Shown here: in pieces, positions 1 through 23,503 of the stretch
How positions within the stretch are numbered: the stretch's first letter is position 1
Layout of the letters: each line of letters begins with the position of its first letter
Source: Skeletonema tropicum
Taxonomy: Eukaryota > Bacillariophyta > Thalassiosirophyceae > Thalassiosirales > Thalassiosiraceae
NCBI GenBank assembly: GCA_037178625.1
Contig: CM074142.1
Coordinates: forward strand, 1,612,001-1,676,000
Direction: 5' to 3'
DNA length: 64,000 nucleotides
The notes under the pieces: model-generated
What the model saw: the letters and a program-made list of their open reading frames with translations, nothing else
What the model was told of the DNA's origin: nothing
Databases searched by the model: none
Program-made: the position numbers and the translations under genes

Positions 1-207
1 AGCCTATCTAAAATCATATAACTGCAACTCTAAAATGACCTAGTATTCAAATTCAAGCGAAAGTCTCCCACTCCCATTCTCATCAACATAACCAATCACA
101 ACACGTGTACAAATCCTTTCGATCATTAAACAAACACAAGCCGCTCCAATCCGCTCACTGCGAAAAGAATTCTTGCATTGATGGATACCTTACTTCTCCG
201 TCTCTCT

Positions 208-2205
208 CTAGGCTTGGGCGAATGCAACAGCTTCGTCCAACTCTTCATCTTCATCGCGATCAAAGACCCCATAATCATACTCCTCTTCATCTCCATCAAA
301 GGGCAACTTATCGAAGGAGTCAACTTCCTCGTCGCCTCTTCTTTGGCAATTACCTGCAGCACATTGGCAGTTGCTTGTGCATCCAGACATATTGCAATCT
401 CCTGTGATGTGAAATTAGTAAGCACAAGGAGTTCCAAGTGATGTTAGAGGCTACACATTCCATACATAAGAAAGGCACACAACATCATTTTCTGTTTCTA
501 TATGGAGAGAGCAAATCTAATAGAAAGCCTTACCCGAGGAACATTGGCAGTTGCTACTGCATCCAGACATATTGCAACCTCCTGTTATGTGAAAATAGTC
601 CAATGAGGCAGAAGTTAGAAACTACACACTGCAGAAGACGGGCGCATAACATCATCTTTCATATAAAGGGAGTACAGCTTGTATAGAAAGCCTTACCTGT
701 AGGACATTGGCAATTGGATGTGCACTTAGGCATTTCGCAATGTCCTGTTAGTTATGCGAAAATGATAAGGATAAGGAGTCCCAAGGGAAGAGAAGGTTAG
801 AGTCTACGACATGAAATGTGGCACACGCACACAAAGCTTCAAAAGAAGAGCCTTACCTCCAGGACATTGGCAATTGGATGTGCACTTAGGCATTTCGCAA
901 TGTCCTGTTATGCGAACACAAGGACAAGGAGTTCAAAGAGAAGGATCATTAGAGAGGAGGAACGTAGGACATAGGAGTAAGAGGAACAGACACTAAAATG
1001 AAACTGAGTGCTATTCCAGTGAAATGCCTTACCTTGCGAACAATGACAGTTGGATGTGCAAGTGGACAAATCTCCCGAGCCGCTGTCCCCGCCCCAGGGC
1101 CAGCCTCCCGAGCCGCTGTTCCCGCCCCAGGGCCAGCCCTGGCCGCCCCACCCAGGATCTACCTCACCACCTCTCCTTTGGCAACCTTCTGTGATGTGAA
1201 ATTTGACAAGGGAAGGGAGTTTAAAGGTATGGTTAGAGTCACATACAATTAAGAGGGCATCCGAAGCTTCCGTGGAGAAACAGGTTTAGTAGAAAAGCCT
1301 TACCTGCAGCACATTGGCAGTTGCTTCTGCATCCAGACAAATTGCAACCTCCTGTGATGTAAATTAACAAGGAAAGGGAGTTTAAGTAAGTTAGAGTCAT
1401 ATGCTATTTAAGGGGGCATCCGAAGCTTCCGTGGAGAGAACAGATTCAGTAGAAAAGCCTTACCTCCAGAACATTGGCAGTTGCTTCTGCATTTAGGCAT
1501 ATTGCAACGTCCTGGTGAAGAAATCAGAATGGACAAGTGATTATTTGAAGAGAATATTAGATTAGAGATTACACACTACAATGGGCACAACAGAGTTAGG
1601 AATAATATGGAGAGAAGAGCTTAAATAGAAAATCCTCACCTCCAGAACATTGGCAATTGGATGTGCACTTAGGCATTTCGCAATGTCCTGTTATGCGAAA
1701 ATGATAAGGAGTCCCGAGGAAGGAGAAGGTTAGGTTAGAGTCTCACGACATAAAATGTGGCACACGCACACAAAGCTTCAAAAGAAGAGCCTTACCTCCA
1801 GGACATTGGCAATTGGATGTGCACTTAGGCATTTCGCATTTTTCTGTCATGCGAAACAAGCAAGGACAAGGAGTTCGAAGAGAGGGAGCATTATTTAGAG
1901 AGGAGGAACGTAGAAGTAAGAAAAACAGAAGAGTAAAATGAAACAGAGTGCATTTGTCAGTGAAATTCCTCACCTCCCCAAGGGCAGTTACAGGCGGATG
2001 TGCAAATGGACAAGTCACTCGAGCCGACGTGCCGGTTCCACCACCAACCCGAGTTCTCTCCTTCGTCTTCGTTCAGGAACGATCCGCGAAGAGTTTGGGG
2101 GGTGGTAGATGATGACTCATCGCCGTCGCTGCTACTGCTAGCGTAGACGCCCGACGCAGTTGCCAACATGGCAAAGGCAGTAAGTTTGAGGAAGATGCAC
2201 TTCAT
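208..2205 (-). CDS. Secreted Cys-rich microexon repeat protein, copy A
   Basis: Inferred ten-exon gene: 2205-1974, 1843-1796, 1687-1640, 1511-1464, 1351-1304, 1188-1033, 904-857, 744-697, 581-534 and 401-208. All introns are GT-AG (108-132 nt) and all are phase 1; the joined frame is open for 305 residues. Exon 1 starts at the first ATG and encodes a signal peptide (MKCIFLKLTAFAML..), an acidic/Ser linker and a first half-repeat (CTSACNCPWG). Seven exons are exactly 48 nt, each encoding a 16-residue repeat of pattern G-x-C-x-M-x-x-C-[TR]-S-N-C-Q-C with spacing C-x4-C-x3-C-x-C. The 156-nt exon carries two G-W-P-W-G-G units. The last exon adds a repeat plus a long Asp/Glu tail. Probably secreted and disulfide-rich, perhaps cell-wall associated; no family recognised. 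Its last exon and 3' flank differ from copies B and C, so it is probably the array edge. Confidence 0.72.
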
Positions 2206-3175
2206 GTTGATGGAGAAGGGAGGAGGTAATGGTAGTTGAAATGATTGCTGTTGCTGTTTATGAGATGTTTCTGGATTGGAGATCTTTGCGAGAGCAAGAT
2301 TTTGGTCACCGTGTGTGTTTTGCTAAAAGAGGACGCGTGTTCTTATGTGTCTTCTTGGGTGCTGTTATTTATGTTATTATCAATGATGACAACCACCGAT
2401 TTTTTGCCCCTGAAAAATGTGCTTGACGTTGTTTAGCCATTACTACACCAATACTACGTCGATCCTGCTGTTTCAAAGACCACTATTATTCCATTCAGTT
2501 AGTTTGGAGTGTATATGCAACTTGGCTTGATGAGATTCCATCCACACGCCGAGATGTTGGGGGTGTCAAATCAGATGCATCGGCGTCGTCGAGAGGCAAA
2601 TGAGGCGATTTTGATTCAAATATCATATCACACATCTCACAAAAAGCATCCACACCATGATGCATCACATGGCATTATCGACCATGACATAAAGAATAAC
2701 AACAACTTCAACACACTGCACACCCCAAAATTTTGTGATGAATCCATTTTGACCAATATGGACGCCCAAGCAGCAGGTGTAGTAAATGAAAGTCTTATAG
2801 AGGACTTTAACTTCAAGCCTGGACTCTGAGAGCAGGTGCAACAGTGGGAGTAATGGAGAAGATGGACGTGTAGACGTGACAGTTACACCATTCACCTTAT
2901 ACCTCAGAGAAATATGAAGTCGGATAGATTTAGTTGTTGTTGCAACAAATGTACTCCTATCTGACGCACAGCAGAAGTGTAGGGTGTGTGATTTCAGGCA
3001 TCAGTTCAGTAAGAGCATATCTAAAACTCAAATTAGCCTAAGATGCTACCACTACCAACTCTAACTCTAAATCTAAACCCCAAGAATCAAATTCAAGCGC
3101 AAGTCTACTCCCCATTCTCATCAATATACCAATTGCAACACCTGTGCTGCATCGACGGAAACCTTACTTCTCTCT

Positions 3176-5174
3176 CTAGGCTTGGGCGAATACAGCAGCT
3201 TCGTCCAACTCTTCATCTTCATCGCGATCAAAGTCCCCATAATCATACTCCTCTTCATCTCCATCAAAGGGCAACTGATCGAAGGAGTCACCTTCCTCGT
3301 CGCCTCTTCTTTGGCAATTACCTGCAGCACATTGGCAGTTGCTTGTGCATCCAGACATATTGCAATCTCCTGTGATGTGAAATTAGTAAGCACAAGGAGT
3401 TCCAAGTGATGTTAGAGGCTACACATTCCATACATAAGAAAGGCACACAACATCATTTTCTGTTTCTATATGGAGAGAGCAAATCTAATAGAAAGCCTTA
3501 CCCGAGGAACATTGGCAGTTGCTACTGCATCCAGACATATTGCAACCTCCTGTTATGTGAAAATAGTCCAATGAGGCAGAAGTTAGAAACTACACACTGC
3601 AGAAGACGGGCGCATAACATCATCTTTCATATAAAGGGAGTACAGCTTGTATAGAAAGCCTTACCTGTAGGACATTGGCAATTGGATGTGCACTTAGGCA
3701 TTTCGCAATGTCCTGTTAGTTATGCGAAAATGATAAGGATAAGGAGTCCCAAGGGAAGAGAAGGTTAGAGTCTCACGACATGAAATGTGGCACACGCACA
3801 CAAAGCTTCAAAAGAAGAGCCTTACCTCCAGGACATTGGCAATTGGATGTGCACTTAGGCATTTCGCAATGTCCTGTTATGCGAACACAAGGACAAGGAG
3901 TTCAAAGAGAAGGATCATTAGAGAGGAGGAACGTAGGACATAGGAGTAAGAGGAACAGACACTAAAATGAAACTGAGTGCTATTCCAGTGAAATGCCTTA
4001 CCTTGCGAACAATGACAGTTGGATGTGCAAGTGGACAAATCTCCCGAGCCGCTGTCCCCGCCCCAGGGCCAGCCTCCCGAGCCGCTGTTCCCGCCCCAGG
4101 GCCAGCCCTGGCCGCCCCACCCAGGATCTACCTCACCACCTCTCCTTTGGCAACCTCCTGTGATGTGAAATTTGACAAGGGAAGGGAGTTTAAAGGTATG
4201 GTTAGAGTCACATACAATTAAGAGGGCATCCGAAGCTTCCGTGGAGAAACAGGTTTAGTAGAAAAGCCTTACCTGCAGCACATTGGCAGTTGCTTCTGCA
4301 TCCAGACAAATTGCAACCTCCTGTGATGTAAATTAACAAGGAAAGGGAGTTTAAGTAAGTTAGAGTCATATGCTATTTAAGGGGGCATCCGAAGCTTCCG
4401 TGGAGAGAACAGATTCAGTAGAAAAGCCTTACCTCCAGAACATTGGCAGTTGCTTCTGCATTTAGGCATATTGCAACGTCCTGGTGAAGAAATCAGAATG
4501 GACAAGTGATTATTTGAAGAGAATATTAGATTAGAGATTACACACTACAATGGGCACAACAGAGTTAGGAATAATATGGAGAGAAGAGCTTAAATAGAAA
4601 ATCCTCACCTCCAGAACATTGGCAATTGGATGTGCACTTAGGCATTTCGCAATGTCCTGTTATGCGAAAATGATAAGGAGTCCCGAGGAAGGAGAAGGTT
4701 AGGTTAGAGTCTCACGACATAAAATGTGGCACACGCACACAAAGCTTCAAAAGAAGAGCCTTACCTCCAGGACATTGGCAATTGGATGTGCACTTAGGCA
4801 TTTCGCATTTTTCTGTCATGCGAAACAAGCAAGGACAAGGAGTTCGAAGAGAGGGAGCATTATTTAGAGAGGAGGAACGTAGAAGTAAGAAAAACAGAAG
4901 AGTAAAATGAAACAGAGTGCATTTGTCAGTGAAATTCCTCACCTCCCCAAGGGCAGTTACAGGCGGATGTGCAAATGGACAAGTCACTCGAGCCGACGTG
5001 CCGGTTCCACCACCAACCCGAGTTCTCTCCTTCGTCTTCGTTCAGGAACGATCCGCGAAGAGTTTGGGGGGTGGTAGATGATGACTCATCGCCGTCGCTG
5101 CTACTGCTAGCGTAGACGCCCGACGCAGTTGCCAACATGGCAAAGGCAGTAAGTTTGAGGAAGATGCACTTCAT
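3176..5174 (-). CDS. Secreted Cys-rich microexon repeat protein, copy B
   Basis: Same ten-exon layout as the neighbouring copy downstream: 5174-4943, 4812-4765, 4656-4609, 4480-4433, 4320-4273, 4157-4002, 3873-3826, 3712-3665, 3549-3502, 3369-3176; 305 residues. Upstream of the last exon it matches copy A almost base for base (one inserted C in an intron, and T to C at the acceptor-proximal base of the Gly/Trp exon, so that exon begins G-G-C rather than E-G-C). The acidic tail differs from copy A at several residues (for example GDSFDQL against VDSFDKL). The near identity of introns and exons alike points to very recent duplication or conversion. Confidence 0.72.
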
Positions 5175-6144
5175 GTTGATGGAGAAGGGAGGAGGTAATG
5201 GTAGTTGAAATGATTGCTGTTGCTGTTTATGAGATGTTTCTGGATTGGAGATCTTTGCGAGAGCAAGATTTTGGTCACCGTGTGTGTTTTGCTAAAAGAG
5301 GACGCGTGTTCTTATGTGTCTTCTTGGGTGCTGTTATTTATGTTATTATCAATGATGACAACCACCGATTTTTTGCCCCTGAAAAATGTGCTTGACGTTG
5401 TTTAGCCATTACTACACCAATACTACGTCGATCCTGCTGTTTCAAAGACCACTATTATTCCATTCAGTTAGTTTGGAGTGTATATGCAACTTGGCTTGAT
5501 GAGATTCCATCCACACGCCGAGATGTTGGGGGTGTCAAATCAGATGCATCGGCGTCGTCGAGAGGCAAATGAGGCGATTTTGATTCAAATATCATATCAC
5601 ACATCTCACAAAAAGCATCCACACCATGATGCATCACATGGCATTATCGACCATGACATAAAGAATAACAACAACTTCAACACACTGCACACCCCAAAAT
5701 TTTGTGATGAATCCATTTTGACCAATATGGACGCCCAAGCAGCAGGTGTAGTAAATGAAAGTCTTATAGAGGACTTTAACTTCAAGCCTGGACTCTGAGA
5801 GCAGGTGCAACAGTGGGAGTAATGGAGAAGATGGACGTGTAGACGTGACAGTTACACCATTCACCTTATACCTCAGAGAAATATGAAGTCGGATAGATTT
5901 AGTTGTTGTTGCAACAAATGTACTCCTATCTGACGCACAGCAGAAGTGTAGGGTGTGTGATTTCAGGCATCAGTTCAGTAAGAGCATATCTAAAACTCAA
6001 ATTAGCCTAAGATGCTACCACTACCAACTCTAACTCTAAATCTAAACCCCAAGAATCAAATTCAAGCGCAAGTCTACTCCCCATTCTCATCAATATACCA
6101 ATTGCAACACCTGTGCTGCATCGACGGAAACCTTACTTCTCTCT

Positions 6145-8110
6145 CTAGGCTTGGGCGAATACAGCAGCTTCGTCCAACTCTTCATCTTCATCGCGATCAA
6201 AGTCCCCATAATCATACTCCTCTTCATCTCCATCAAAGGGCAACTGATCGAAGGAGTCACCTTCCTCGTCGCCTCTTCTTTGGCAATTACCTGCAGCACA
6301 TTGGCAGTTGCTTGTGCATCCAGACATATTGCAATCTCCTGTGATGTGAAATTAGTAAGCACAAGGAGTTCCAAGTGATGTTAGAGGCTACACATTCCAT
6401 ACATAAGAAAGGCACACAACATCATTTTCTGTTTCTATATGGAGAGAGCAAATCTAATAGAAAGCCTTACCCGAGGAACATTGGCAGTTGCTACTGCATC
6501 CAGACATATTGCAACCTCCTGTTATGTGAAAATAGTCCAATGAGGCAGAAGTTAGAAACTACACACTGCAGAAGACGGGCGCATAACATCATCTTTCATA
6601 TAAAGGGAGTACAGCTTGTATAGAAAGCCTTACCTGTAGGACATTGGCAATTGGATGTGCACTTAGGCATTTCGCAATGTCCTGTTAGTTATGCGAAAAT
6701 GATAAGGATAAGGAGTCCCAAGGGAAGAGAAGGTTAGAGTCTCACGACATGAAATGTGGCACACGCACACAAAGCTTCAAAAGAAGAGCCTTACCTCCAG
6801 GACATTGGCAATTGGATGTGCACTTAGGCATTTCGCAATGTCCTGTTATGCGAACACAAGGACAAGGAGTTCAAAGAGAAGGATCATTAGAGAGGAGGAA
6901 CGTAGGACATAGGAGTAAGAGGAACAGACACTAAAATGAAACTGAGTGCTATTCCAGTGAAATGCCTTACCTTGCGAACAATGACAGTTGGATGTGCAAG
7001 TGGACAAATCTCCCGAGCCGCTGTCCCCGCCCCAGGGCCAGCCCTGGCCGCCCCACCCAGGATCTACCTCACCACCTCTCCTTTGGCAACCTCCTGTGAT
7101 GTGAAATTTGACAAGGGAAGGGAGTTTAAAGGTATGGTTAGAGTCACATACAATTAAGAGGGCATCCGAAGCTTCCGTGGAGAAACAGGTTTAGTAGAAA
7201 AGCCTTACCTGCAGCACATTGGCAGTTGCTTCTGCATCCAGACAAATTGCAACCTCCTGTGATGTAAATTAACAAGGAAAGGGAGTTTAAGTAAGTTAGA
7301 GTCATATGCTATTTAAGGGGGCATCCGAAGCTTCCGTGGAGAGAACAGATTCAGTAGAAAAGCCTTACCTCCAGAACATTGGCAGTTGCTTCTGCATTTA
7401 GGCATATTGCAACGTCCTGGTGAAGAAATCAGAATGGACAAGTGATTATTTGAAGAGAATATTAGATTAGAGATTACACACTACAATGGGCACAACAGAG
7501 TTAGGAATAATATGGAGAGAAGAGCTTAAATAGAAAATCCTCACCTCCAGAACATTGGCAATTGGATGTGCACTTAGGCATTTCGCAATGTCCTGTTATG
7601 CGAAAATGATAAGGAGTCCCGAGGAAGGAGAAGGTTAGGTTAGAGTCTCACGACATAAAATGTGGCACACGCACACAAAGCTTCAAAAGAAGAGCCTTAC
7701 CTCCAGGACATTGGCAATTGGATGTGCACTTAGGCATTTCGCATTTTTCTGTCATGCGAAACAAGCAAGGACAAGGAGTTCGAAGAGAGGGAGCATTATT
7801 TAGAGAGGAGGAACGTAGAAGTAAGAAAAACAGAAGAGTAAAATGAAACAGAGTGCATTTGTCAGTGAAATTCCTCACCTCCCCAAGGGCAGTTACAGGC
7901 GGATGTGCAAATGGACAAGTCACTCGAGCCGACGTGCCGGTTCCACCACCAACCCGAGTTCTCTCCTTCGTCTTCGTTCAGGAACGATCCGCGAAGAGTT
8001 TGGGGGGTGGTAGATGATGACTCATCGCCGTCGCTGCTACTGCTAGCGTAGACGCCCGACGCAGTTGCCAACATGGCAAAGGCAGTAAGTTTGAGGAAGA
8101 TGCACTTCAT
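6145..8110 (-). CDS. Secreted Cys-rich microexon repeat protein, copy C
   Basis: Exons inferred at 8110-7879, 7748-7701, 7592-7545, 7416-7369, 7256-7209, 7093-6971, 6842-6795, 6681-6634, 6518-6471 and 6338-6145; 294 residues. It is essentially identical to copy B except for an exact 33-bp loss in the Gly/Trp-rich exon (123 nt instead of 156), which removes one 11-residue G-W-P-W-G-G unit and leaves the frame intact. All other microexons are 48 nt and phase 1-1. The tail ends in the acidic D-E-D-E-E-L-D-E segment and AQA before the stop. Confidence 0.72.
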
Positions 8111-9080
8111 GTTGATGGAGAAGGGAGGAGGTAATGGTAGTTGAAATGATTGCTGTTGCTGTTTATGAGATGTTTCTGGATTGGAGATCTTTGCGAGAGC
8201 AAGATTTTGGTCACCGTGTGTGTTTTGCTAAAAGAGGACGCGTGTTCTTATGTGTCTTCTTGGGTGCTGTTATTTATGTTATTATCAATGATGACAACCA
8301 CCGATTTTTTGCCCCTGAAAAATGTGCTTGACGTTGTTTAGCCATTACTACACCAATACTACGTCGATCCTGCTGTTTCAAAGACCACTATTATTCCATT
8401 CAGTTAGTTTGGAGTGTATATGCAACTTGGCTTGATGAGATTCCATCCACACGCCGAGATGTTGGGGGTGTCAAATCAGATGCATCGGCGTCGTCGAGAG
8501 GCAAATGAGGCGATTTTGATTCAAATATCATATCACACATCTCACAAAAAGCATCCACACCATGATGCATCACATGGCATTATCGACCATGACATAAAGA
8601 ATAACAACAACTTCAACACACTGCACACCCCAAAATTTTGTGATGAATCCATTTTGACCAATATGGACGCCCAAGCAGCAGGTGTAGTAAATGAAAGTCT
8701 TATAGAGGACTTTAACTTCAAGCCTGGACTCTGAGAGCAGGTGCAACAGTGGGAGTAATGGAGAAGATGGACGTGTAGACGTGACAGTTACACCATTCAC
8801 CTTATACCTCAGAGAAATATGAAGTCGGATAGATTTAGTTGTTGTTGCAACAAATGTACTCCTATCTGACGCACAGCAGAAGTGTAGGGTGTGTGATTTC
8901 AGGCATCAGTTCAGTAAGAGCATATCTAAAACTCAAATTAGCCTAAGATGCTACCACTACCAACTCTAACTCTAAATCTAAACCCCAAGAATCAAATTCA
9001 AGCGCAAGTCTACTCCCCATTCTCATCAATATACCAATTGCAACACCTGTGCTGCATCGACGGAAACCTTACTTCTCTCT

Positions 9081-10316
9081 CTAGGCTTGGGCGAATACAG
9101 CAGCTTCGTCCAACTCTTCATCTTCATCGCGATCAAAGTCCCCATAATCATACTCCTCTTCATCTCCATCAAAGGGCAACTGATCGAAGGAGTCACCTTC
9201 CTCGTCGCCTCTTCTTTGGCAATTACCTGCAGCACATTGGCAGTTGCTTGTGCATCCAGACATATTGCAATCTCCTGCGATGTGAAATTAGCAAGCACAA
9301 GGAGTTCCAAGAGATGTTAGAGGCTACACATTCCATACATAAGAAAGACACTCAAAATCATTTTCTGTTTCTACGGAGAGAGCAAATCTAATAGAAAGCC
9401 TTACCCAAGAGACATTCGCAGTTGCTTGTGCAGCTAGGCATGTCGCAATCTCCTGTTATGCGAAAATGACAAGGATAAGGAGTTCCAAGGAAGGAGAAGG
9501 TTAGAGTCTCACGAAAAATGATGACAGGCAAACGCACACGAAGTATTATGTAGAGAAGAGCTTCAAAAGAAGAGCCTTACCCGAGAGACATTGGCAATCG
9601 GACTTGCACTTAAGCATGTCGCAATCTCCTGTTTTGCGAAAATGATGAGGATGAGGAGTTCCAGGAAAGAGAAGGTTAGAGTCTCACGACATAAATGTGG
9701 CACACGCACACAAAGCTTCAAAAGAAGAGCCTTACCCCAGGCACATTGGCAATTGGACGTGCACTTAGGCATGTCGCAATCTCCTGTTATGCGAACATGA
9801 CAAGAATAAGGAGTTCCAAGGAAGAAGAAAGTTTAAGAACATACTACTATTATCATGAGCAGTGAATGTGAAAGAAAAGTTTCATGAAACGAAGTCTTAC
9901 CTCCAGGACATTGGCAATCGGATGTGCACTCAGGCATGTCGTAATCTCCTGTGATGCGAAATAAGCAAGGACAAGGCGTTCGAAGAGAGGGAGCATTATT
10001 TAGAGAGGAGGAACGTAGGACATAGGAGTAAGAGGAACAGAAGACTAAAATGAAACTGAGTGCTATTCCAGTGAAATGCCTTACCTTGCGAACAATAACA
10101 GTTGGATGTGCAAGTGGACAAGTCACTCGAGCAGGCGTTCCAGTTCCAGGGCCACCAACCCGAGTCCTCTCCTTCGTCTTCGTTCAGGAACGATCCGCGA
10201 AGAGTTTGGGGGGTGGTAGATGATGACTCATCGCCGTCGCTGCTACTGCTAGCGTAGACGCCCGACGCAGTTGCCAACATGGCAAAGGCAGTAAGTTTGA
10301 GGAAGATGCACTTCAT
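9081..10316 (-). CDS. Secreted Cys-rich microexon repeat protein, diverged copy D
   Basis: Shorter, diverged paralogue with six inferred exons: 10316-10085, 9948-9901, 9784-9737, 9628-9581, 9452-9405 and 9274-9081; 205 residues. The four internal exons are again 48 nt, phase 1-1, but encode different repeats (for example GDYDMPECTSDCQCPG and GDCDMLKCKSDCQCLS; the first has lost one Cys to Tyr). Exon 1 has the same signal peptide as the array copies, but its 3' half (WWPWNWN..DLSTCTSNCYCSQ) and the following intron match the internal Gly/Trp exon and its intron in copies A-C, so the gene is a mosaic. The last exon is close to that of B and C, suggesting conversion at the 3' end. Confidence 0.7.
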
Positions 10317-10432
10317 GTTGATGGAGGAGGTAATGGTAATGGTAGTTGAAATGATTGCTGTTGCTGTTTATGAGATATGTGAGATATATTCTGGATTGGA
10401 GATCTTCGCAGAACACATAGGTAGATTTTGGT

Positions 10433-10500
10433 CACCTCTGTGTTTTAGAGTGAGGACTCACCTCTGTGTTTTAGAGTGAGGACTCACCTCTGTGTTTTAT
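10433..10500. repeat. 26-bp tandem repeat, 2.6 copies
   Basis: The unit CACCTCTGTGTTTTAGAGTG followed by AGGACT repeats exactly at 10433-10458 and 10459-10484, with a partial third copy to 10500. It lies about 120 bp upstream of the start codon of the diverged Cys-rich gene, so it may sit in its promoter. No protein is suggested. Confidence 0.9.
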
Positions 10501-12095
10501 TTAGACTAGCCGCTTCGCGTGCTAGCGCGTCCACCATCTACCGCCAAAATTAAAAAAATCAGAGCCAGCTCTGATTTGAAAATTTTGCTAGCTTTCTACG
10601 CACAAAACACAAAACTCGACTGCAATAGTCGCCTCTACGCCCTACTACGCCGCAACATCGACCCTCCACCTACCTGCACCGGCCATAAGTTGATAGTACA
10701 TGTTATTACCTTTCGATTAAACCGCTGGGAGTCATCATATACGCTATACTTGCTTTACAACGGCTGCATAGGTGCTCATATACGCATGCGTCATACATAA
10801 AATCACTAGAATTGCTAGCGAAAATAGGCACTTTTGGTACGTCTGTAACTCTTTACCGTGTCAATATAATTCGGTCGCCTAAATTGTATTTGCATTCGGA
10901 TACATCTCCTCAAGACATTCCGCGTATTTAGTTTGGGTTGAATACGTTGTTAGGTGCGCTCTATGAGGGTATGCTCACATGGTTGTTTTGTCTGTTTTGT
11001 TAGTGTTTTGCTAGTTGATGCGGGGCGCGCGCAAAAAAATTAAATCAGAGCCAGCTCTGATTTTTTTTCGGCAGTAGCCATCCTCCAAAATGTGGAAATT
11101 TGACAAGGTCCTTATATGGGGTACGTAGGAATTAAAAACATACTGAATTCCTACTTGACAATAAAACGCGGTCAGACAGGAAATGAGGAAAGATTTTTCC
11201 ACCTCCACCCAAAGCTAGTAGTTCACCACGATGATAGCCGTCACTTCGCCCTATCGAAATCATCGCCACTTCGACGACATCGCTTCTATACGTCGAGGAA
11301 TATCTCTTCTATTATGTCTTTGAAATATTAATTGACAGCATGGTTACATTGGAGTATGAGATAGGTGCATAATATACAGTCCCCGGCAGCGGCCTTTTTA
11401 TCGGCGTATCATCGTGTCGCCGGTCCCGATGATCGGGGATATATAGTGATGTAGTGAAGTCATTGGAACACCATTCATCGACGGCAACTTCATCCAAGAG
11501 TATAACGGAGTCGTCTTGGCTGATCTTCCGGGTCGACAACTCTGAATACACTCCACTGGGTTCGACATGCACCACCGACGGGTCATCGAATGTTGATAAC
11601 GTTTAATACGACGGTGTTACAATGCGATGACATGATCCAAATATCATTTATTTCATCCCCGTCGCTTCTATAATGTTAATATGTAGCTGATAGTGCAGAG
11701 GGTTGATCCATATCAGAGATATTGTTGGGTAGAGACCGGATCACGCAACAATACAAGTTTTAAGTGGAGCTAATACTTTGGGATGCTGATCGCTATGAAG
11801 TGGGGATACACTGACTTTTCGCCGATAAATGCGGGTGAACCGCGATAATAACTGGATGCAGGATGAGCTAGATCGAAGTTGACGGGGGTGGAATCTGGTG
11901 CAATGTCAGGAGACTCCTGTGTCATTGCGAACTGGCAATTTTATGTAACCTTTTGCCCCGCTTATACCCCCCTTTGGCATGAATACTAAGAACCACAGAC
12001 TTATTGGGTAGTCAAACGTTTTATAAAGTAAGATAGAAGCAGAATATGGGCTATTTGACATGTGTTCAATCACAACAGAACCTTATCCTTAATCT
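10501..12095. other. Non-coding stretch with two identical hairpins
   Basis: No convincing complete gene. A hairpin with arms AAATCAGAGC and GCTCTGATTT around a CA centre occurs twice in the same orientation, at 10556-10577 and 11042-11063; the second is followed by eight T residues. A compact CTAG-flanked inverted repeat lies at about 10506-10530, and a related CTAG/CGC-rich segment lies at about 13855-13890. These could be ends of a non-autonomous transposon, but no clear target duplication was found. Confidence 0.5.
11312..11575 (-). pseudogene. Coding-like fragment, unknown
   Basis: An open frame of about 87 residues with protein-like composition (DEVAVDEWCSNDFTTSLYIP and similar) but no ATG at its 5' end and an in-frame stop shortly upstream. 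No domain recognised. It may be an exon or the remains of a mobile-element protein. Confidence 0.25.
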
Positions 12096-17015: not shown

Positions 17016-19373
17016 TTACCATCCAATTAGCATCTTGCGTAAACGAATAAATGTTTCAGGATCAAGAGGTTTTGTCAATGCATCTGCAAGTTGATCTTGC
17101 GTGTTGACATACTTAATCAGAATTTTGTTCGCGTTCACAAAAGAGCGAAAATGATGATACTTCAGCGCAATGTGTTTTGTCCTCGGAGAGAATTTCTGCT
17201 TCGTCGCCATACTGATGCATGATTGATTATCTTCGTGCACGGTGCAGTTGAAATTTGGAATTGTAATCTCCATCGGGAATGCAGTTTTCAATTCTTTCAT
17301 CATCTCCATCATTGGAATTACTTCTCGCAGTGCTTGCGATAGCGCGATGTATTCCGCTTCCGCAGTACTCAAAGCAATTTCCGTTTGCAACTTACTTACC
17401 CAGTGAATTGGGCAGTTTGCATACATGAGGATGTATCCAGTTCTTGACATCACGCTCTCTGCTGATTCAGCATCTGCATGTTGCCAACCACCAGCGAAAT
17501 CAGCGTCAACATAGCATTCTAAGCCCAACTTCTTGTCTGGTTTGTAGATAATTCCCTTGTCCATTGACGTACGTAGATATTTTCCAATCTTCATTACTGC
17601 TACCTCGTGACTCCGCTTCGGATCCATCGAAAATCTTGCGCATTGGTGTGTAGCAACTGAAATGTCTGGTCTAGTATTGCCTTGCAGGTAAGTCAACATC
17701 CCGATAGCTGTACGATATTTCCACGTATACTTGCGTTTTATGCCATTGCTGTCTTTCGATAGAATAGCTTTATCCGCAGGTGTAGAACGAGACTTTGCTG
17801 CTTGGCCCCACTTACTGTCATCACCGAGTCCTATCTCACTAACAATTCGTTGGATAAGATGAGGTTGTGAAAGCTCGAATGAACCATCATCGTAATGCTG
17901 TATCTCTATCCCAAGAAACTTATCAATATCCCCTTCATCAGTGAGAATAAATTTCTCTTCGCCTTCAACCAAAGACTTGACAAAGTTGTCGAGAGTGTCT
18001 TGGCTTGTACTGACTAAGATGCAGTCATCCACATACGTCAATACCGCCAAACCTTTCTTGAGATAAAGACAGCTATCAATGGCACTCGGAGTTAAACCTC
18101 GCTTCATTAGACCTTCTTTCAAATGTTGATACCAATTGTGACTGGCTTGCTTGAGCCCGTACAGATTCTTCTTCAACTTCAGCAGATATCTAGACTTGTT
18201 TGGATCTACTCTCCCCCTCCCGGTATTATCTTCATCGTCTGAATCGTCGTATTCAAATCCGATGGGGAGTTCCATCCAAATGTCTTCCTCCAAGTCCGCC
18301 TGCGGAAACGCTATGACGAAATCAATAGATTTGGAGTGTAACCGGTGGATCTTGCAGATAAGGAGTAAAAGTCGAACAGTCAACATATTTACCACCGGAG
18401 AATAGGTCTCCCAGTAGTTCTCCCCCCATTGCTGCATACCACCATGCGCACAAAGTCGTGCTTTATGCTTGAGTAATAGTCCTGCTGGACTCCTCTTGCG
18501 CTTAAATGACCAGATTGATTTAATTGCTTTCATGCCGTCAGGCATATCTGATCTCGGTACTAATTCCCAATGACCCCGCTGTTCATGATCTCTGACTTCT
18601 TTTATCATCGCCTCGCGAAAATCGTCTTTGTCGGCCTGTTGCATCGCTTGACCATAGTGAAAAGTCTCATTTGATGATATATCTTGAGTGACTAGAGAAA
18701 AGAAATGTGTAGCGTTGAAAGTCCCATCGTAGAGTTCATTCGCCTCGTGATACTTCTGCATCATACGATGAGTCAAGGTGGGTGATTTACCGTTGGATGT
18801 AACATCATGATGAAAGATGTTGTGATTTGGCATAGATATTTCAGAAATGGTGCTTACTGTTGAAAGAGCAGTGTACAGACATCTGCCAGCACGAGTACGT
18901 GACAAGGTTTCTGTAGCAGTTCCAATAGTAGATAGGGCGGTAGCACATTTCTCTGCCTGAGCTCTAATGCGTTCAGATCGCCGTAGCCCTGCTTCCGCAA
19001 GATTGATAACTGTTGGCATCTCCAATTCATTGGAGACCTGAGCTGTTGGAGCTGGAGCGGTTGATTTCTCTGTCGCTGTCATGGCATTATTGTTTTGTGT
19101 ACTTCGTTGTGGTGTAGAAAGACTTGCTGCAGCGTCTTCTTCCTTCGCCGAAGGTAAACTGCCTGACTCGCCGCCTCCCTCGGCAACTGGCACAACTGGC
19201 ATTGTGTCGATAGGAGCGGATGATGCCGGTGTATTTGGATTCTTGCTGTTGTTTCGATCGTTTATTATTGCAAAGGGATCAGTAATAGCCGTCGCTTTTC
19301 GTTTCCTAGTCCCATCCATCGGCAGGGGTTCGATATTCCCCTCGTTCATATTCTTCAACCAAGTATCTGTCAA
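17016..19373 (-). CDS. Ty1/copia polyprotein, RT and RNase H part
   Basis: 785 residues, open throughout. After a Ser/Thr-rich connector, the copia reverse transcriptase begins near residue 290 (KSIWSFKRKR..KARLCAHGG), with DFVIAFPQADLEEDIW, NLYGLKQASHNWYQ and the catalytic TYVDD at about 445. RNase H follows (YVDADFAGGW, STAEAEYIAL, HEDNQSCISM, TKHIALKYHHFR, DQLADALTKPL). It copies element RNA to cDNA in virus-like particles. The first in-frame codon is not ATG because this is the downstream half of a polyprotein interrupted by a nested insertion at about 19.4-21.66 kb; the first ATG is at 19349. RT and RNase H look intact. Similar elements are common in diatoms. Confidence 0.9.
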   Translation of the reverse strand: MTDTWLKNMNEGNIEPLPMDGTRKRKATAITDPFAIINDRNNSKNPNTPASSAPIDTMPVVPVAEGGGESGSLPSAKEEDAAASLSTPQRSTQNNNAMTATEKSTAPAPTAQVSNELEMPTVINLAEAGLRRSERIRAQAEKCATALSTIGTATETLSRTRAGRCLYTALSTVSTISEISMPNHNIFHHDVTSNGKSPTLTHRMMQKYHEANELYDGTFNATHFFSLVTQDISSNETFHYGQAMQQADKDDFREAMIKEVRDHEQRGHWELVPRSDMPDGMKAIKSIWSFKRKRSPAGLLLKHKARLCAHGGMQQWGENYWETYSPVVNMLTVRLLLLICKIHRLHSKSIDFVIAFPQADLEEDIWMELPIGFEYDDSDDEDNTGRGRVDPNKSRYLLKLKKNLYGLKQASHNWYQHLKEGLMKRGLTPSAIDSCLYLKKGLAVLTYVDDCILVSTSQDTLDNFVKSLVEGEEKFILTDEGDIDKFLGIEIQHYDDGSFELSQPHLIQRIVSEIGLGDDSKWGQAAKSRSTPADKAILSKDSNGIKRKYTWKYRTAIGMLTYLQGNTRPDISVATHQCARFSMDPKRSHEVAVMKIGKYLRTSMDKGIIYKPDKKLGLECYVDADFAGGWQHADAESAESVMSRTGYILMYANCPIHWVSKLQTEIALSTAEAEYIALSQALREVIPMMEMMKELKTAFPMEITIPNFNCTVHEDNQSCISMATKQKFSPRTKHIALKYHHFRSFVNANKILIKYVNTQDQLADALTKPLDPETFIRLRKMLIGW

Positions 19374-19581
19374 ACGAAAATCCTCTGAAGTACAGCTGTT
19401 AGCAAATCTTGGCGGATAATCGCAGAATTTTTATTCCTACGTACAAACGTACTGAAAGCCCCTTAACTGGGGAGCTACTCTACCTCCGTCTTTCTCAATT
19501 GCGAACAACAACCGGACCATGGTAAATAATGCCTCGTATGCCATATTCCACCAAGAGACATAAATGAACATTGTCCTATGT

Positions 19582-20595
19582 TTATTTCTTCTTTGCCGTC
19601 GCTTCTACCTTCGTATTCTCTCGTTTTACTCTGAGACTAAAGTTGAGCTTCTCTTCCTTCTTGAGCAAATCATTCTTGAAATCAAAGTCTTTTGCGTAGA
19701 CAGTTTTCATAATGAAAGATTTGTCAAAGTCAATAGCAGCACGATGACATTTCAAAACCTTCTTCAGCGTTTCAATTCTCTTGTGCGGAATGGGTGCATC
19801 CTCACTTGAATTACCTTCTGTCTCCTTGGTATTCTTTGCCTCAATCTCCAACATCTTATATGTCTCCATGTAACCTCTTGCCCTGGCACTGAACTTACGA
19901 ATGAGATCCACAGTGAGAACCTCTCTTGAAATACACTTGTCGACCAATGCAAGGAAATCAGCAGTCGTTTTCTTTTGAGCTAATGGATGTCTTCGGTAGA
20001 GAGCTTTGGAGAACCCCCAAGAGTATTCGACACCCTCACCAGCGTATTCAGCATGATACTTTGTTGTAATCAAGGCTCTTACTCCCAAAGATTCACAAAC
20101 ATATTCGAGTTGGCTTTGTTCAGACAAAAAATCTGTGCAGTTTGCAAGCAAATGCCGGAGGGAAAGCTCAGGAACCAAGTTACCCTCATCATCATACTTC
20201 ATCACTTGGTAGCTGCCCTTTCTGAAGGTTGCTATATCGATCCAGCCACGTTCATACGCAATCTGCAGAAGTCCCTTACCCTTGCCCTCCCATCCATATA
20301 TCATTTTGGTGGTAGGTGTTATTTTGATATCAATACTAGACGCTTGCGCCATTTTTGCTAGCTCAGCATGTGTCATCTTCCATAACCTTATTTCTCCTTC
20401 CTTTTTCCCCCACTCGGTGTCCATCAGCTCCGATATCAGCTCTTTCTTCACCTTATGTCGCTCTTTCCTCTTGTCTTCTGGTATTTCAACCTCTCGGTCG
20501 TGCCGTTGTCTTTCACGTTCCTCTGCTGTCAGCCAAAATGGGCCGACATCTTCACTGGTGAAGTTCATCGTTTGTTCTTGACCGATAGTCACCAT
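19582..20595 (-). CDS. Transposase-like protein, C-terminal type domain
   Basis: 337 residues from an ATG. The order GWEGKGKGLLQIAYERGWID, LRHLLANCTDF, QLEYVCESLGV, then KYHAEYAGEGVEYSWGFSKA and an R-K-F/Y-M-E-T-Y segment resembles the C-terminal third of eukaryotic Tc1/mariner-like DDE transposases, where the last block normally reads close to KFHCELNPIEYFWG. The catalytic N-terminal D and D motifs were not found in this ORF or the one upstream. The N-terminus is rich in charged helices (EERERQRHDREVEIPEDKRK). It overlaps the upstream ORF by 44 nt in a different frame. It may be truncated, joined by frameshift or splicing, or repurposed. Similarity judged by eye only. Confidence 0.5.
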   Translation of the reverse strand: MVTIGQEQTMNFTSEDVGPFWLTAEERERQRHDREVEIPEDKRKERHKVKKELISELMDTEWGKKEGEIRLWKMTHAELAKMAQASSIDIKITPTTKMIYGWEGKGKGLLQIAYERGWIDIATFRKGSYQVMKYDDEGNLVPELSLRHLLANCTDFLSEQSQLEYVCESLGVRALITTKYHAEYAGEGVEYSWGFSKALYRRHPLAQKKTTADFLALVDKCISREVLTVDLIRKFSARARGYMETYKMLEIEAKNTKETEGNSSEDAPIPHKRIETLKKVLKCHRAAIDFDKSFIMKTVYAKDFDFKNDLLKKEEKLNFSLRVKRENTKVEATAKKK

Positions 20596-21397
20596 TGCTG
20601 GGCACTAGTCCGTTGTACACATCGGCACCTTCTTCAAATCCGAAGAGAGCTGCTGCTTCAGGTGACTGCCATATAATATTCGGAGTCTGGTTGTTGCTGC
20701 TGTTATCGCCGTCTATATCGCCACTGCTGTTGTTATTGTCGTCGTCTTCGTCTTCATCTTCGTCGTCAACTTGATTATTCTCATCCTCTAATCTACCCAC
20801 GTTGGTGACGAATGGCACGAGAGGGCTCTGCTGCTGCTCAACTAGTCGTTGCGAGCGCCTTGTTCTTTTTTGTGGAGTAGGAGTAATTGGTGCAGCCGCT
20901 GATGATTTTGTTGCTTCTTTACGTTTGTTCTCATTATTTTTGTTCTTCTTCTTACCAGCGCATCCATCGTCGGGAAATGATACTTGCTCCGGCTTGTTGC
21001 AAGATCGCTGCCGATTATTAGTTGCACTGTAACTCTGTATATGTTCTATTTCTGTGCACAATAACTCTGCTGCGCGTATTGGTTCGTTGGGCACTTTCTC
21101 TCCCTCTCCAAAGTAGTAATAGTGCACCATCCGGCGTAATGACGAATTGAATGGACATGATGTTGTGAAATTTTTGTGGTATATCTTGTGTACATTGCTG
21201 CTGTTGAAAGGTCCGGCTGCCTTGTTCAGACGCTGCACGAGTTTGTTCCGTAAGGTATTGTCTTTATCTACATTCGTATAGTGTCTGTGCAATATCTCTA
21301 CCAACGACTGGTCGCAAATCCACCTGCCGCGATAAGTGTCACTTTTACTGATGAGCCGTGTGAAAAGGTATTCAAAAAGTGTATTACCATCGTTCAT
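20552..21397 (-). CDS. Hypothetical ORF upstream of transposase-like gene
   Basis: 281 residues from an ATG. The first 130 residues are a mixed helical domain with many aromatics (LFEYLFTRLI, RWICDQSLVEILHRHY, MVHYYYFGEGEKVPNEPIRA), followed by Lys-rich (KKKNKNNENKRK) and Arg-rich segments and a long Asp/Glu/Asn stretch (DDEDEDEDDDNNNSSGDIDG). No DDE triad is evident. It lies wholly inside the nested TIR element and overlaps the next ORF, so it is probably part of the same mobile-element gene. Function unknown. Confidence 0.45.
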   Translation of the reverse strand: MNDGNTLFEYLFTRLISKSDTYRGRWICDQSLVEILHRHYTNVDKDNTLRNKLVQRLNKAAGPFNSSNVHKIYHKNFTTSCPFNSSLRRMVHYYYFGEGEKVPNEPIRAAELLCTEIEHIQSYSATNNRQRSCNKPEQVSFPDDGCAGKKKNKNNENKRKEATKSSAAAPITPTPQKRTRRSQRLVEQQQSPLVPFVTNVGRLEDENNQVDDEDEDEDDDNNNSSGDIDGDNSSNNQTPNIIWQSPEAAALFGFEEGADVYNGLVPSNGDYRSRTNDELHQ

Positions 21398-21619
21398 GAT
21401 TACAATCTTTAGTCAACCTAATTGGCTATTTTGGATCTAGACATGCAAGAGAGGTTAATTTATCCTTTTGGTTGAGTAAATATTCAACTTGTTGTGCGTA
21501 GTACGCTCCGGCATTTGGCCATGGTTGGCATCTTTTTGCGCGGAGTGGCTCTTGTTGAGGGGTGAGTTGGGAGAAATCGGCCCAATGGGTTTTTATAAGA
21601 CTCACTACGTCATTTGTAC

Positions 21620-23503
21620 CTAACATACGTAGGAATTCGAAACTTGAACGGCTATCCGAAAATCCGTGAAAACAGCTGTAGCTAGTTCGGATGAAGTCTG
21701 AACAAGCTGTTCCCACATTGGTGGCACCGATGCGTTCTGCATATAGGGTACGGTACTAAAATTGTCATCGAAAACCACATGATATGCTGGTGATACTAGA
21801 CCTGTAACCGGATTGAATACCAATGCAACTGAACCCGCATGAATCGGTGAATGCCCAAGATACACGCCGCATCTTGATCGTGGCTCCCACTTTGGAACTT
21901 TACCTCCAGCTGAATGCGCCCTCGAGTCTAAAACAAATACCGGACAGAATAAAGTGTGAAAGGTCTTCACTGGAACGTTTTCCATCGATACTCCGTGAAG
22001 CTTAGCTTCTGGAGTGAGTCCATCCTCGTCAAGATGGAGCACATTGTGACGATCAGCTGCTGCTTTCATTGCAAATGGCCAAAGATAAGTAGAGATCATT
22101 TCAGGCCACATCCGCATTCCATGCAGCAATAGCGTTCGAGCAGTCAAAGTCAAATATTTGTTCTTTGCTTCAATCTTTCCATTTTGTGAATGATGGCCGA
22201 CACCACAAAATGTAATCGCTTGCTGGTGCAAATTGCAATCGTCTAACCAAGCCTTATCGGCAAATCTTCCATTATCACAGCGGTATGACTTAACTTTCCT
22301 ACCCGCAATAGTGAAGATCTTTTCAAATGCTTTCTTCGCTGTAAGCGTATCCTCCGTGGTGAAAGACTTCATGATATGCACATAGACGTAATCTGATACA
22401 TGATCCACGAAAGTTGTCGCACCCCAAATACGCTCACTCGTAAGCTTCCCACTCATTTGTGGAACCAGTCCAGGTTGTGCACTCACAATCTGATCTGCAG
22501 ACACGCCATCTCCTGGTAGTACCTCAGTTTTCTTCTTGATGCTCCCACCTCCACCTTTGTGTCGCCACGGGCGGCGTCTAGCGTTGCCAAACAAGCATTC
22601 TAGGCACTTCGGCGGAGCTTTCTCACATTGTAGTAGAGACTTCGGAAGAACTCCAATCTTAGCAAGACGAAAAAGATGCTTGAAATCCAAGTGATATAGG
22701 CGATGATGCCATCCTAACAGCTCCTGTTGAATCGGAGTAAGTTGCTGTGGACGGGCTAAGGCTTGCGCCTCTTTCTGCGAAACACCTACTCCAACTTCAT
22801 TCCTGTAGTCAAGAGGGGAGCCAGGTATGTTCTCAAACGAAGGCTGGAGTTGTGAAACAAGAGTCGAGTCATGGACGGCAATCCGAGTTCCATCCTTGCG
22901 ACGAATAAGATGATTCTTGCCCGATGCATCTTCTCCCTCGTAAACCACGCTATCCGTTTTCAAAGTATCACCCTCCATACGTTTGTAAAGTAGGTTTTCT
23001 CCAAGTTTAAAAGGATATTTCGATTGTTCTTCCGGTGACTTGTTGGAGGAACAAGGTAGACAATAATCTGAAGAATACGGCGGCTTGTACCAAGACTCAC
23101 GCTGATCTGGAATCTGGTCCACCACTCCAACTTCTCCCTCGTCGTCCTCAACGAAATTAGTCGGTTGTACAGTATACGCAGTTGTAAAAGCGTGACGAAC
23201 AGTACTATCGTAAAAACGTGACACCCGCGTACAAAATGCCTCGAAATAAGAATTGCCCTGATAGAGAATCAACTCTGGGAGTTGTGACTCCGACTTGTGC
23301 AGAAAGTTCAACCTGTGCTTCTGATTATCCCAAACTAACTCTGTGCGAGCACCACTAGTCCGAGACCAAGTGCCATCGATTGCAAGAGGATTGTTAGTAG
23401 GATCCGTATCATTGAAGAAATTTGACAGCGCTACAACTCCAAGAATGTTGTAGGGTGTATGCGGATCATAGAATGCACACATCACTTGAGTGACTTGCCC
23501 CAC
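21620..23503 (-). CDS. Ty1/copia polyprotein, integrase part (5'-truncated)
   Basis: About 627 residues, starting inside the protease region (YDPHTPYNILGVVALSNFFN) with no ATG; gag and the protease active site are missing. The GAG-pre-integrase zinc motif is present (WHHRLYHLDF..CLECLFG). Integrase core: DGVSADQIVSAQPG, FVDHVSDYVYVH, YRCDNGRF and the Glu of NGKIEAKNK, giving a D-D-E set. The frame ends shortly after ..WEQLVQTSSELAT where the nested element interrupts the polyprotein. No 5' LTR was recognised beyond 23503, so the copia element is incomplete at its 5' end. Confidence 0.85.
   Translation of the reverse strand: MGQVTQVMCAFYDPHTPYNILGVVALSNFFNDTDPTNNPLAIDGTWSRTSGARTELVWDNQKHRLNFLHKSESQLPELILYQGNSYFEAFCTRVSRFYDSTVRHAFTTAYTVQPTNFVEDDEGEVGVVDQIPDQRESWYKPPYSSDYCLPCSSNKSPEEQSKYPFKLGENLLYKRMEGDTLKTDSVVYEGEDASGKNHLIRRKDGTRIAVHDSTLVSQLQPSFENIPGSPLDYRNEVGVGVSQKEAQALARPQQLTPIQQELLGWHHRLYHLDFKHLFRLAKIGVLPKSLLQCEKAPPKCLECLFGNARRRPWRHKGGGGSIKKKTEVLPGDGVSADQIVSAQPGLVPQMSGKLTSERIWGATTFVDHVSDYVYVHIMKSFTTEDTLTAKKAFEKIFTIAGRKVKSYRCDNGRFADKAWLDDCNLHQQAITFCGVGHHSQNGKIEAKNKYLTLTARTLLLHGMRMWPEMISTYLWPFAMKAAADRHNVLHLDEDGLTPEAKLHGVSMENVPVKTFHTLFCPVFVLDSRAHSAGGKVPKWEPRSRCGVYLGHSPIHAGSVALVFNPVTGLVSPAYHVVFDDNFSTVPYMQNASVPPMWEQLVQTSSELATAVFTDFRIAVQVSNSYVC

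Follow-up and report, generated by a model that had tools for sequence, protein, structure and literature searches.

One 48-nucleotide exon per cysteine-rich module in a predicted secreted protein family of the diatom Skeletonema tropicum

Positions 208-10316 of the DNA analyzed here carry four predicted genes, A-D, all on the minus strand, in which a repeated four-Cys module of 16 residues is coded by one 48-nucleotide (nt) exon per module. The whole stretch (the window) comprises 64,000 nt, from 1,612,001 to 1,676,000 of contig CM074142.1 (assembly GCA_037178625.1), and is part of chromosome 16 (C16) of Skeletonema tropicum, whose genome, in the copy searched, comprises 78.39 Mb in 125 contigs. 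We consider it fairly probable (about 60%) that these genes belong to a fast-evolving Skeletonema family of secreted Cys-rich repeat proteins, with modules stapled by disulfides and possibly stacked in a solenoid, located at the cell surface or in the matrix, and changing their length through gain and loss of whole exons. The uniformity of the exons, the conservation of the Cys codons and records from other Skeletonema carry this reading.

Exon layout of genes A-D

Gene models were rebuilt from the sequence. Genes A (2205-208), B (5174-3176) and C (8110-6145) have 10 exons each, with one of 232 nt followed by four of 48 nt, a linker of 156, 156 and 123 nt respectively, three of 48 nt and one of 194 nt, while gene D (10316-9081) has six (232, four times 48, and 194 nt). 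The linker lengths differ by one 33-nt unit. Among the 28 internal exons, 25 are thus 48 nt long and three are linkers (156, 156 and 123 nt); all 28 are of phase 1-1, and all 32 introns, 107-136 nt long, have GT-AG borders. The preliminary description, made from the sequence alone, had every internal repeat exon at 48 nt, which fails for exon 6 of A-C, although phase and splice borders were as described. It also assigned one C-x4-C-x3-C-x-C module to each repeat exon, which applies to 24 of the 25, exon 2 of gene D (9901-9948) having Tyr at the first Cys. A-C are near-identical tandem copies (between A and B, exons are 99.35% and introns 100% identical over 1080 aligned bases), and therefore what had been counted as four paralogous genes amounts to four models of two types. 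Two further points held: the internal exons, all 28 of them, can be exchanged without breaking the frame, and the genes are rich in exons, at least by the standard of this genome. Published means for S. tropicum are 1.74 exons per gene, 750.84 bp per exon and 254.47 bp per intron in the accessible part of PMC11032307, so the exon numbers of A-D are high for this genome; another annotation, in table rows available without column heads, gives a median of 2 and a maximum of 14 exons.

Both strands of the window were scanned for stop-free units of the form AG-48nt-GT with at least three of the four Cys in place. The minus strand yielded 29, namely the 25 internal 48-nt exons plus the beginning of each of the four last exons; none was found on the plus strand, and none on either strand outside positions 1-10400 of the window. 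In 200 first-order Markov resamples of the 10.4-kb locus the mean was 0.005 and the maximum 1. The predicted exons are as follows.

10085..10316, minus strand, gene D exon 1, 232 nt: codes for a signal-peptide-like start, an acidic/W-rich pro-region that contains LRGSF, and part of a repeat
9901..9948, minus strand, gene D exon 2, 48 nt, phase 1-1, Tyr replacing the first Cys
9736..9783, minus strand, gene D exon 3, 48 nt
9581..9628, minus strand, gene D exon 4, 48 nt
9405..9452, minus strand, gene D exon 5, 48 nt
9081..9274, minus strand, gene D exon 6, 194 nt: one repeat joined intron-free to CQRRG and the acidic tail
7879..8110, minus strand, gene C exon 1, 232 nt
7701..7748, minus strand, gene C exon 2, 48 nt
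7545..7592, minus strand, gene C exon 3, 48 nt
7369..7416, minus strand, gene C exon 4, 48 nt
7209..7256, minus strand, gene C exon 5, 48 nt
6971..7093, minus strand, gene C exon 6, 123-nt linker, phase 1-1
6795..6842, minus strand, gene C exon 7, 48 nt
6634..6681, minus strand, gene C exon 8, 48 nt
6471..6518, minus strand, gene C exon 9, 48 nt
6145..6338, minus strand, gene C exon 10, 194 nt: repeat and acidic tail
4943..5174, minus strand, gene B exon 1, 232 nt
4765..4812, minus strand, gene B exon 2, 48 nt
4609..4656, minus strand, gene B exon 3, 48 nt
4433..4480, minus strand, gene B exon 4, 48 nt
4273..4320, minus strand, gene B exon 5, 48 nt
4002..4157, minus strand, gene B exon 6, 156-nt linker with a 33-nt tandem repeat in 2 copies
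3826..3873, minus strand, gene B exon 7, 48 nt
3665..3712, minus strand, gene B exon 8, 48 nt
3502..3549, minus strand, gene B exon 9, 48 nt
3176..3369, minus strand, gene B exon 10, 194 nt: repeat and acidic tail
1974..2205, minus strand, gene A exon 1, 232 nt
1796..1843, minus strand, gene A exon 2, 48 nt
1640..1687, minus strand, gene A exon 3, 48 nt
1464..1511, minus strand, gene A exon 4, 48 nt
1304..1351, minus strand, gene A exon 5, 48 nt
1033..1188, minus strand, gene A exon 6, 156-nt linker and putative fusion joint: head like the last exon of H (33/36), remainder like exon 1 of L009 (95/100)
857..904, minus strand, gene A exon 7, 48 nt
697..744, minus strand, gene A exon 8, 48 nt
534..581, minus strand, gene A exon 9, 48 nt
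208..401, minus strand, gene A exon 10, 194 nt: repeat and acidic tail

Family copies in the genome

A search of the genome with exon 1, in which all 18 first-look candidates were scored, found eleven copies and one fragment, all on C16, and a DNA search with one repeat exon gave 31 matches, on C16 only. The copy searched (78.39 Mb against 78.78 Mb published) may lack small unplaced contigs. Eight copies have complete open models: A-D, E and F (1.77 Mb), G (1.4746 Mb) and H (1.4824 Mb). Together with gene I (2.0859 Mb), the nine modelled genes contain 50 exons of 48 nt, 22 of them distinct, and introns of 107-142 nt. Internal 48-nt exons number three in H, four in D, G and I, and four plus three in A-C, E and F.

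Genes A, B and C are 99-100% identical and the assembly was made from PacBio continuous long reads at 0.73% heterozygosity (reported in the part of PMC11032307 available), so one could ask if long-read assembly of a heterozygous diploid has produced a false number of these almost identical 2.95-kb units. We regard this as quite improbable: E and F lie about 150 kb from the window genes and have differences of their own, D, G, H and I are clearly distinct, and the exon layout is independent of copy number.

Evidence for splicing and coding

The predicted junctions are in accordance with P0001, a protein from an MMETSP transcript assembly. It shares both ends with the window proteins, and from residue 73, precisely the point at which exon 1 should stop, it runs through five 16-residue units in a row. 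Its name carries no species; in the parts that it has in common with two S. marinoi proteins it shows 99-100% identity. Eight open reading frames (ORFs) on other public contigs (P0002, P0003, P0005, P0009, P0015, P0016, P0019 and P0020) read through the exon-1 donor into G-K-A, G-K-I or G-E-S, as a conserved donor G/GTAAG or G/GTGAG (slash at the exon border) would give. An unspliced tandem repeat with retained introns was rejected, since, across the nine modelled genes, 62 of the 64 introns would introduce an in-frame stop. In 24 distinct units 94 of 96 Cys codons are kept, and diversity at codon positions 1-2 is 0.019 for Cys codons versus 0.316 for other codons (permutation of columns, p = 2e-5, treating columns and not lineages as exchangeable in units related by descent).

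The same phase 1-1 exons could also serve as a generator of diversity, being skipped or included so that each gene gives a ladder of protein lengths. We hold this only as a tentative possibility. In its favor, all 28 internal exons of the window are interchangeable in frame, and three records with the same ends, P0001, P0010 and P0011, differ by exact whole units (4, 1 and 0 internal units); exon skipping is also reported in the diatom Phaeodactylum, as far as the available part of PMC5859163 goes. However, only P0001 has a transcript name, P0010 being named after a scaffold and P0011 carrying an annotation tag, so 48-nt exons missed in annotation are at least as likely as isoforms, and the records include no pair of isoforms from one gene and one strain. 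The short introns (107-142 nt) moreover favor intron-defined splicing, under which exon skipping is usually rarer. The earlier claim that the locus could make proteins of many lengths is partly supported, by paralogs with different repeat numbers and by tandem gene duplication, while its alternative splicing part comes down to these three records.

Protein architecture and relatives

The predicted proteins consist of a signal-peptide-like start, an LRGSF pro-region, a Trp/Gly-rich stretch, the four-Cys modules and an acidic tail. The boundary Gly of each module is the codon split by the intron. Each predicted protein has 17-41 Cys, and every module contains C-x-C. In agreement with the preliminary description, the start resembles a signal peptide by eye and the tail is acidic, with 19-21 acidic residues among the final 43. 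That description did not recognize the protein family, and this was likewise supported: a known domain was rejected after searches of Pfam (up to E 10), NCBIfam and PDB sequences gave no family match for the repeat proteins. P0006, with a membrane-span-like stretch at its C-terminus (by eye), matched only Spore_YpjB in Pfam, in the membrane-like part and below the cut-off (E 0.035).

We found 24 relatives carrying the module, among them transcripts, two proteins annotated in S. potamos, and others whose tails by eye resemble membrane spans or glycosylphosphatidylinositol (GPI) signals. Hydrophobic GPI-like C-terminal tails were assigned by eye in P0007, P0012, P0014, P0018 and P0021. The three large protein searches were word-limited (one scored only 7994 candidates), so the family may be wider. 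No homologs were found among viral contigs, nor in prokaryote species genomes with P0012 as the sole query, and literature searches, whose coverage lay largely outside subscription journals and preprints, returned nothing on the repeat family. The family built on the four-Cys 16-residue module is still nameless, while its exon-per-repeat layout has known counterparts in brown algae and flukes.

Otherwise differing members have in common a short motif with LRG (SLRGSF, SSLRGAF, NALRGLS, SALRGSW) that follows the signal peptide, seen in exon 1 of A-D and in P0013, P0018 and P0022; it is perhaps a processing or sorting site. P0008, the S. marinoi protein QTG54_006203, has the same start and one repeat with a differing, basic C-terminal part, and is either a chimeric gene or a misjoined model. 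P0013, an S. potamos protein that also carries the four-Cys repeat, begins with ~25 residues for which there are ten matching places (L034-L043) on other chromosomes of S. tropicum, at 77-88% identity; in four of the ten, where a start was found by pattern, the frame soon enters unrelated, perhaps intronic, sequence. One leader exon may be common to different secreted proteins.

Origin of the arrays and a probable gene fusion

Introns between repeats of the same gene are 75-78% identical (gaps 14-21%), which is close to the similarity among the exons (74-80%), and therefore exon and intron were copied together. The arrays would have grown and shrunk through duplication and loss of such units; the phase symmetry follows, because only symmetric units keep the frame. 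In gene H a real intron of 108 nt lies where the last exon of gene D runs on, and across the joint the two agree at 67 of 80 nt. The last exons of D (9081-9274) and of A-C have a donor-like GGTAATTG in frame at their 48th base, where H has this intron. The distant relatives P0007, P0012 and P0014 appear to have uninterrupted repeats, judging from complete ORFs on contigs of 1.0-2.0 kb, so introns may have been either gained in Skeletonema or lost elsewhere.

Genes of the A type (A-C) look like in-frame fusions of two members. Introns 3-5 of gene A match introns 2-4 of H (0.95, 0.85 and 0.82), its introns 6, 7 and 9 match introns 1, 3 and 5 of D, G and I (0.88-0.95), and its exon 6 combines the head of an H-type last exon with the end of exon 1 of the L009 type, in the proportions listed above. 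A-C may have arisen by fusion of an H-like gene with a second member inside exons of the same phase.

Predicted structure and function

With a signal-peptide-like start the product would enter the secretory pathway, where the cysteines would form disulfides stapling each module, possibly as one turn of a beta-solenoid. The protein would then serve as a rod, or offer a surface for binding, in the extracellular matrix or on the outside of the cell, its length set by the number of exons. AlphaFold2 predicted residues 61-150 of P0001 with strands every 16 residues and block means of the predicted local distance difference test (pLDDT) of 87-93. Trp/Gly-rich and acidic stretches are also known from diatom cingulins and other wall proteins, a likeness which we give as a lead only.

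The 17-41 Cys, the C-x-C of each module and the acidic tail would also suit a secreted, metallothionein-like protein whose C-x-C and C-x3-C pairs bind metal and whose repeat number sets the capacity. We think this unlikely, as the signal-peptide-like start and the anchor-like relatives point to an oxidizing compartment where Cys pair, and neither Pfam nor NCBIfam gave a match to a metallothionein family.

Rate of change and points against a functional secreted family

In pairs of D, G and I the signal stretch has 0-1 nonsynonymous changes and the repeats 10-21. The pattern is one of a fixed Cys frame with free surfaces, the other sites varying freely. Between A and B there are 6 nonsynonymous changes, five of them in the tail, no synonymous ones and no changes across 1080 intron bases. 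Positive selection in these young copies was considered and set aside: with about 80% of sites nonsynonymous, 6:0 does not reach significance, and the clustering in the tail could result from gene conversion by another copy as well as from selection.

Several observations weigh against the secreted repeat family as set out above. The S. tropicum gene models are predictions, and their transcript support comes from a relative, P0001, in which two of the five units have one Cys missing. Selection beyond the Cys is weak, with ratios of nonsynonymous to synonymous change (dN/dS) of 0.73, 0.70 and 0.46 in the D, G and I pairs (I included despite its acceptor), and exons are not more conserved than introns in these pairs (exon/intron identity 0.933/0.952, 0.961/0.961 and 0.953/0.965). 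Some copies are damaged: in gene I the last acceptor reads AA; in L009 (1.4547 Mb) an exon with two repeats is followed by foreign sequence; L013 (2.0795 Mb), which also has an exon with two repeats (90 nt as read), is without the signal-peptide part; and only a fragment is present at 2.0840 Mb. Nor does the fusion fit throughout, since introns 1-2 of gene A are D-like and intron 8 is without a clear partner. As to the fold, the AlphaFold2 model of P0012 is weaker (71-81), and Foldseek gave nothing significant against PDB (17 matches at E <= 10, the best at E 1.2). Several of these non-significant rows are beta-helix proteins. AlphaFold2 can also give confident but false beta-solenoids for repeat proteins, according to the available part of PMC11795689, and because of this bias we treat the solenoid as a hypothesis.

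Part of these data would fit a relaxed, decaying family of little function, in which tandem duplication has left the regular exons as a side effect, as only phase-symmetric units survive copying in frame. Exon divergence is at least as great as intron divergence (identity 0.933 versus 0.952 in D-G, 0.9935 versus 1.000 in A-B), dN/dS is 0.46-0.73, and four copies are damaged (I, L009, L013 and that at 2.0840 Mb). The almost invariant Cys codons, the eight copies with open and complete models, and the transcript and annotated relatives in other Skeletonema make decay improbable, and we continue to prefer a functional secreted repeat family.

Comparison with known systems

A precedent within stramenopiles is found in the LRR-ROCO genes of brown algae, named after their leucine-rich repeat (LRR). 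They have one 72-bp phase-2 exon per LRR, with exon shuffling, alternative splicing and diversifying selection, as given in the accessible part of PMC11378527, which cites Zambounis 2012. The earlier comparison of the layout with animal extracellular proteins was too narrow in view of this brown-algal case. Common to both are the stramenopile host and one exon of fixed length and phase per repeat (here 48 nt in 25 of 28 and phase 1-1 in 28 of 28). In contrast to the LRR of GTPase proteins in 72-bp phase-2 exons, the exons here are 48 nt and phase 1-1 and code for a four-Cys module in small, predicted secreted proteins; the LRR motif and the ROC-COR domains were not found in the window proteins (no Pfam match up to E 10). 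Alternative splicing is documented for LRR-ROCO, whereas here the three Skeletonema records with 4, 1 and 0 units are unproven as isoforms. A more far-reaching idea, which seems to us rather doubtful, is that the 48-nt exons work as a ruler, exon skipping giving a per-gene ladder of secreted disulfide-stapled rods and unequal exchange and gene fusion reshuffling the modules, which would provide a variable set of surface proteins similar to what has been proposed for the brown-algal receptors.

Schistosome micro-exon genes (MEGs) code for secreted or membrane-anchored proteins, have symmetric exons 6-36 bp long, and show faster change in the mature part of the protein than in the signal peptide; protein variation by alternative splicing has been proposed for them, and they are stated to be restricted to platyhelminths (PMC4350168 and PMC5825161, in the parts available). 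The window genes are similar in their short symmetric exons and in repeats changing faster than the signal stretch (10-21 versus 0-1); their start, signal-peptide-like by eye, may mean that their products are secreted or anchored too. They differ in that the 48-nt repeat exons are copies of one another, while the MEG exons of 6-36 bp are not one per structural repeat. MEGs have most of their coding sequence in exons of 6-36 bp, whereas in gene A the 48-nt exons account for 336 of 918 nt. The layout works like that of LRR-ROCO genes and MEGs, and the repeat family is a member of neither.

Bacterial ice-nucleation proteins have the same repeat length of 16 residues and a predicted beta-solenoid. 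To our knowledge they have neither a four-Cys module nor introns, and the likeness is one of repeat length and fold, sequence having been compared through the PDB and family searches. Ice binding was set aside: it was hinted at only by fold likeness in the non-significant Foldseek rows and is unlikely in a warm-water species.

Other features of the window

Upstream of gene D lies a short tandem array (10432-10499, period 26, 2.6 copies). A palindrome-like AAATCAGAGCCAGCTCTGATTT is present twice (about 10553-10578 and 11041-11068), some 490 bases apart; the pair perhaps marks the ends of a small mobile element. Separate minus-strand ORFs at 17016-23503 match the reverse transcriptase of the Ty1/copia type (RVT_2) and, weakly and below cut-off, gag_pre-integrs, and resemble a long terminal repeat (LTR) element. 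Further on are ORFs of 799 residues (39923-42322) with a class C seven-helix receptor match slightly below cut-off, of 1396 residues (47289-51479) with an Ulp1 protease domain (Peptidase_C48), and of 692 residues (59352-61430) with a strong DUF285 match in three stretches.

Conclusions

If the reading of a secreted repeat family is right, exon-per-module evolution of secreted proteins takes place in a single-celled diatom that averages fewer than two exons per gene. The family on chromosome 16 brings together boundaries with and without an intron, young tandem copies, a putative fusion gene and damaged copies, so that gain, fusion and loss of repeat exons would be directly readable. It would also give a name to an unlabelled marine-algal family of the four-Cys 16-residue module, and genome annotations may drop microexons of this kind.

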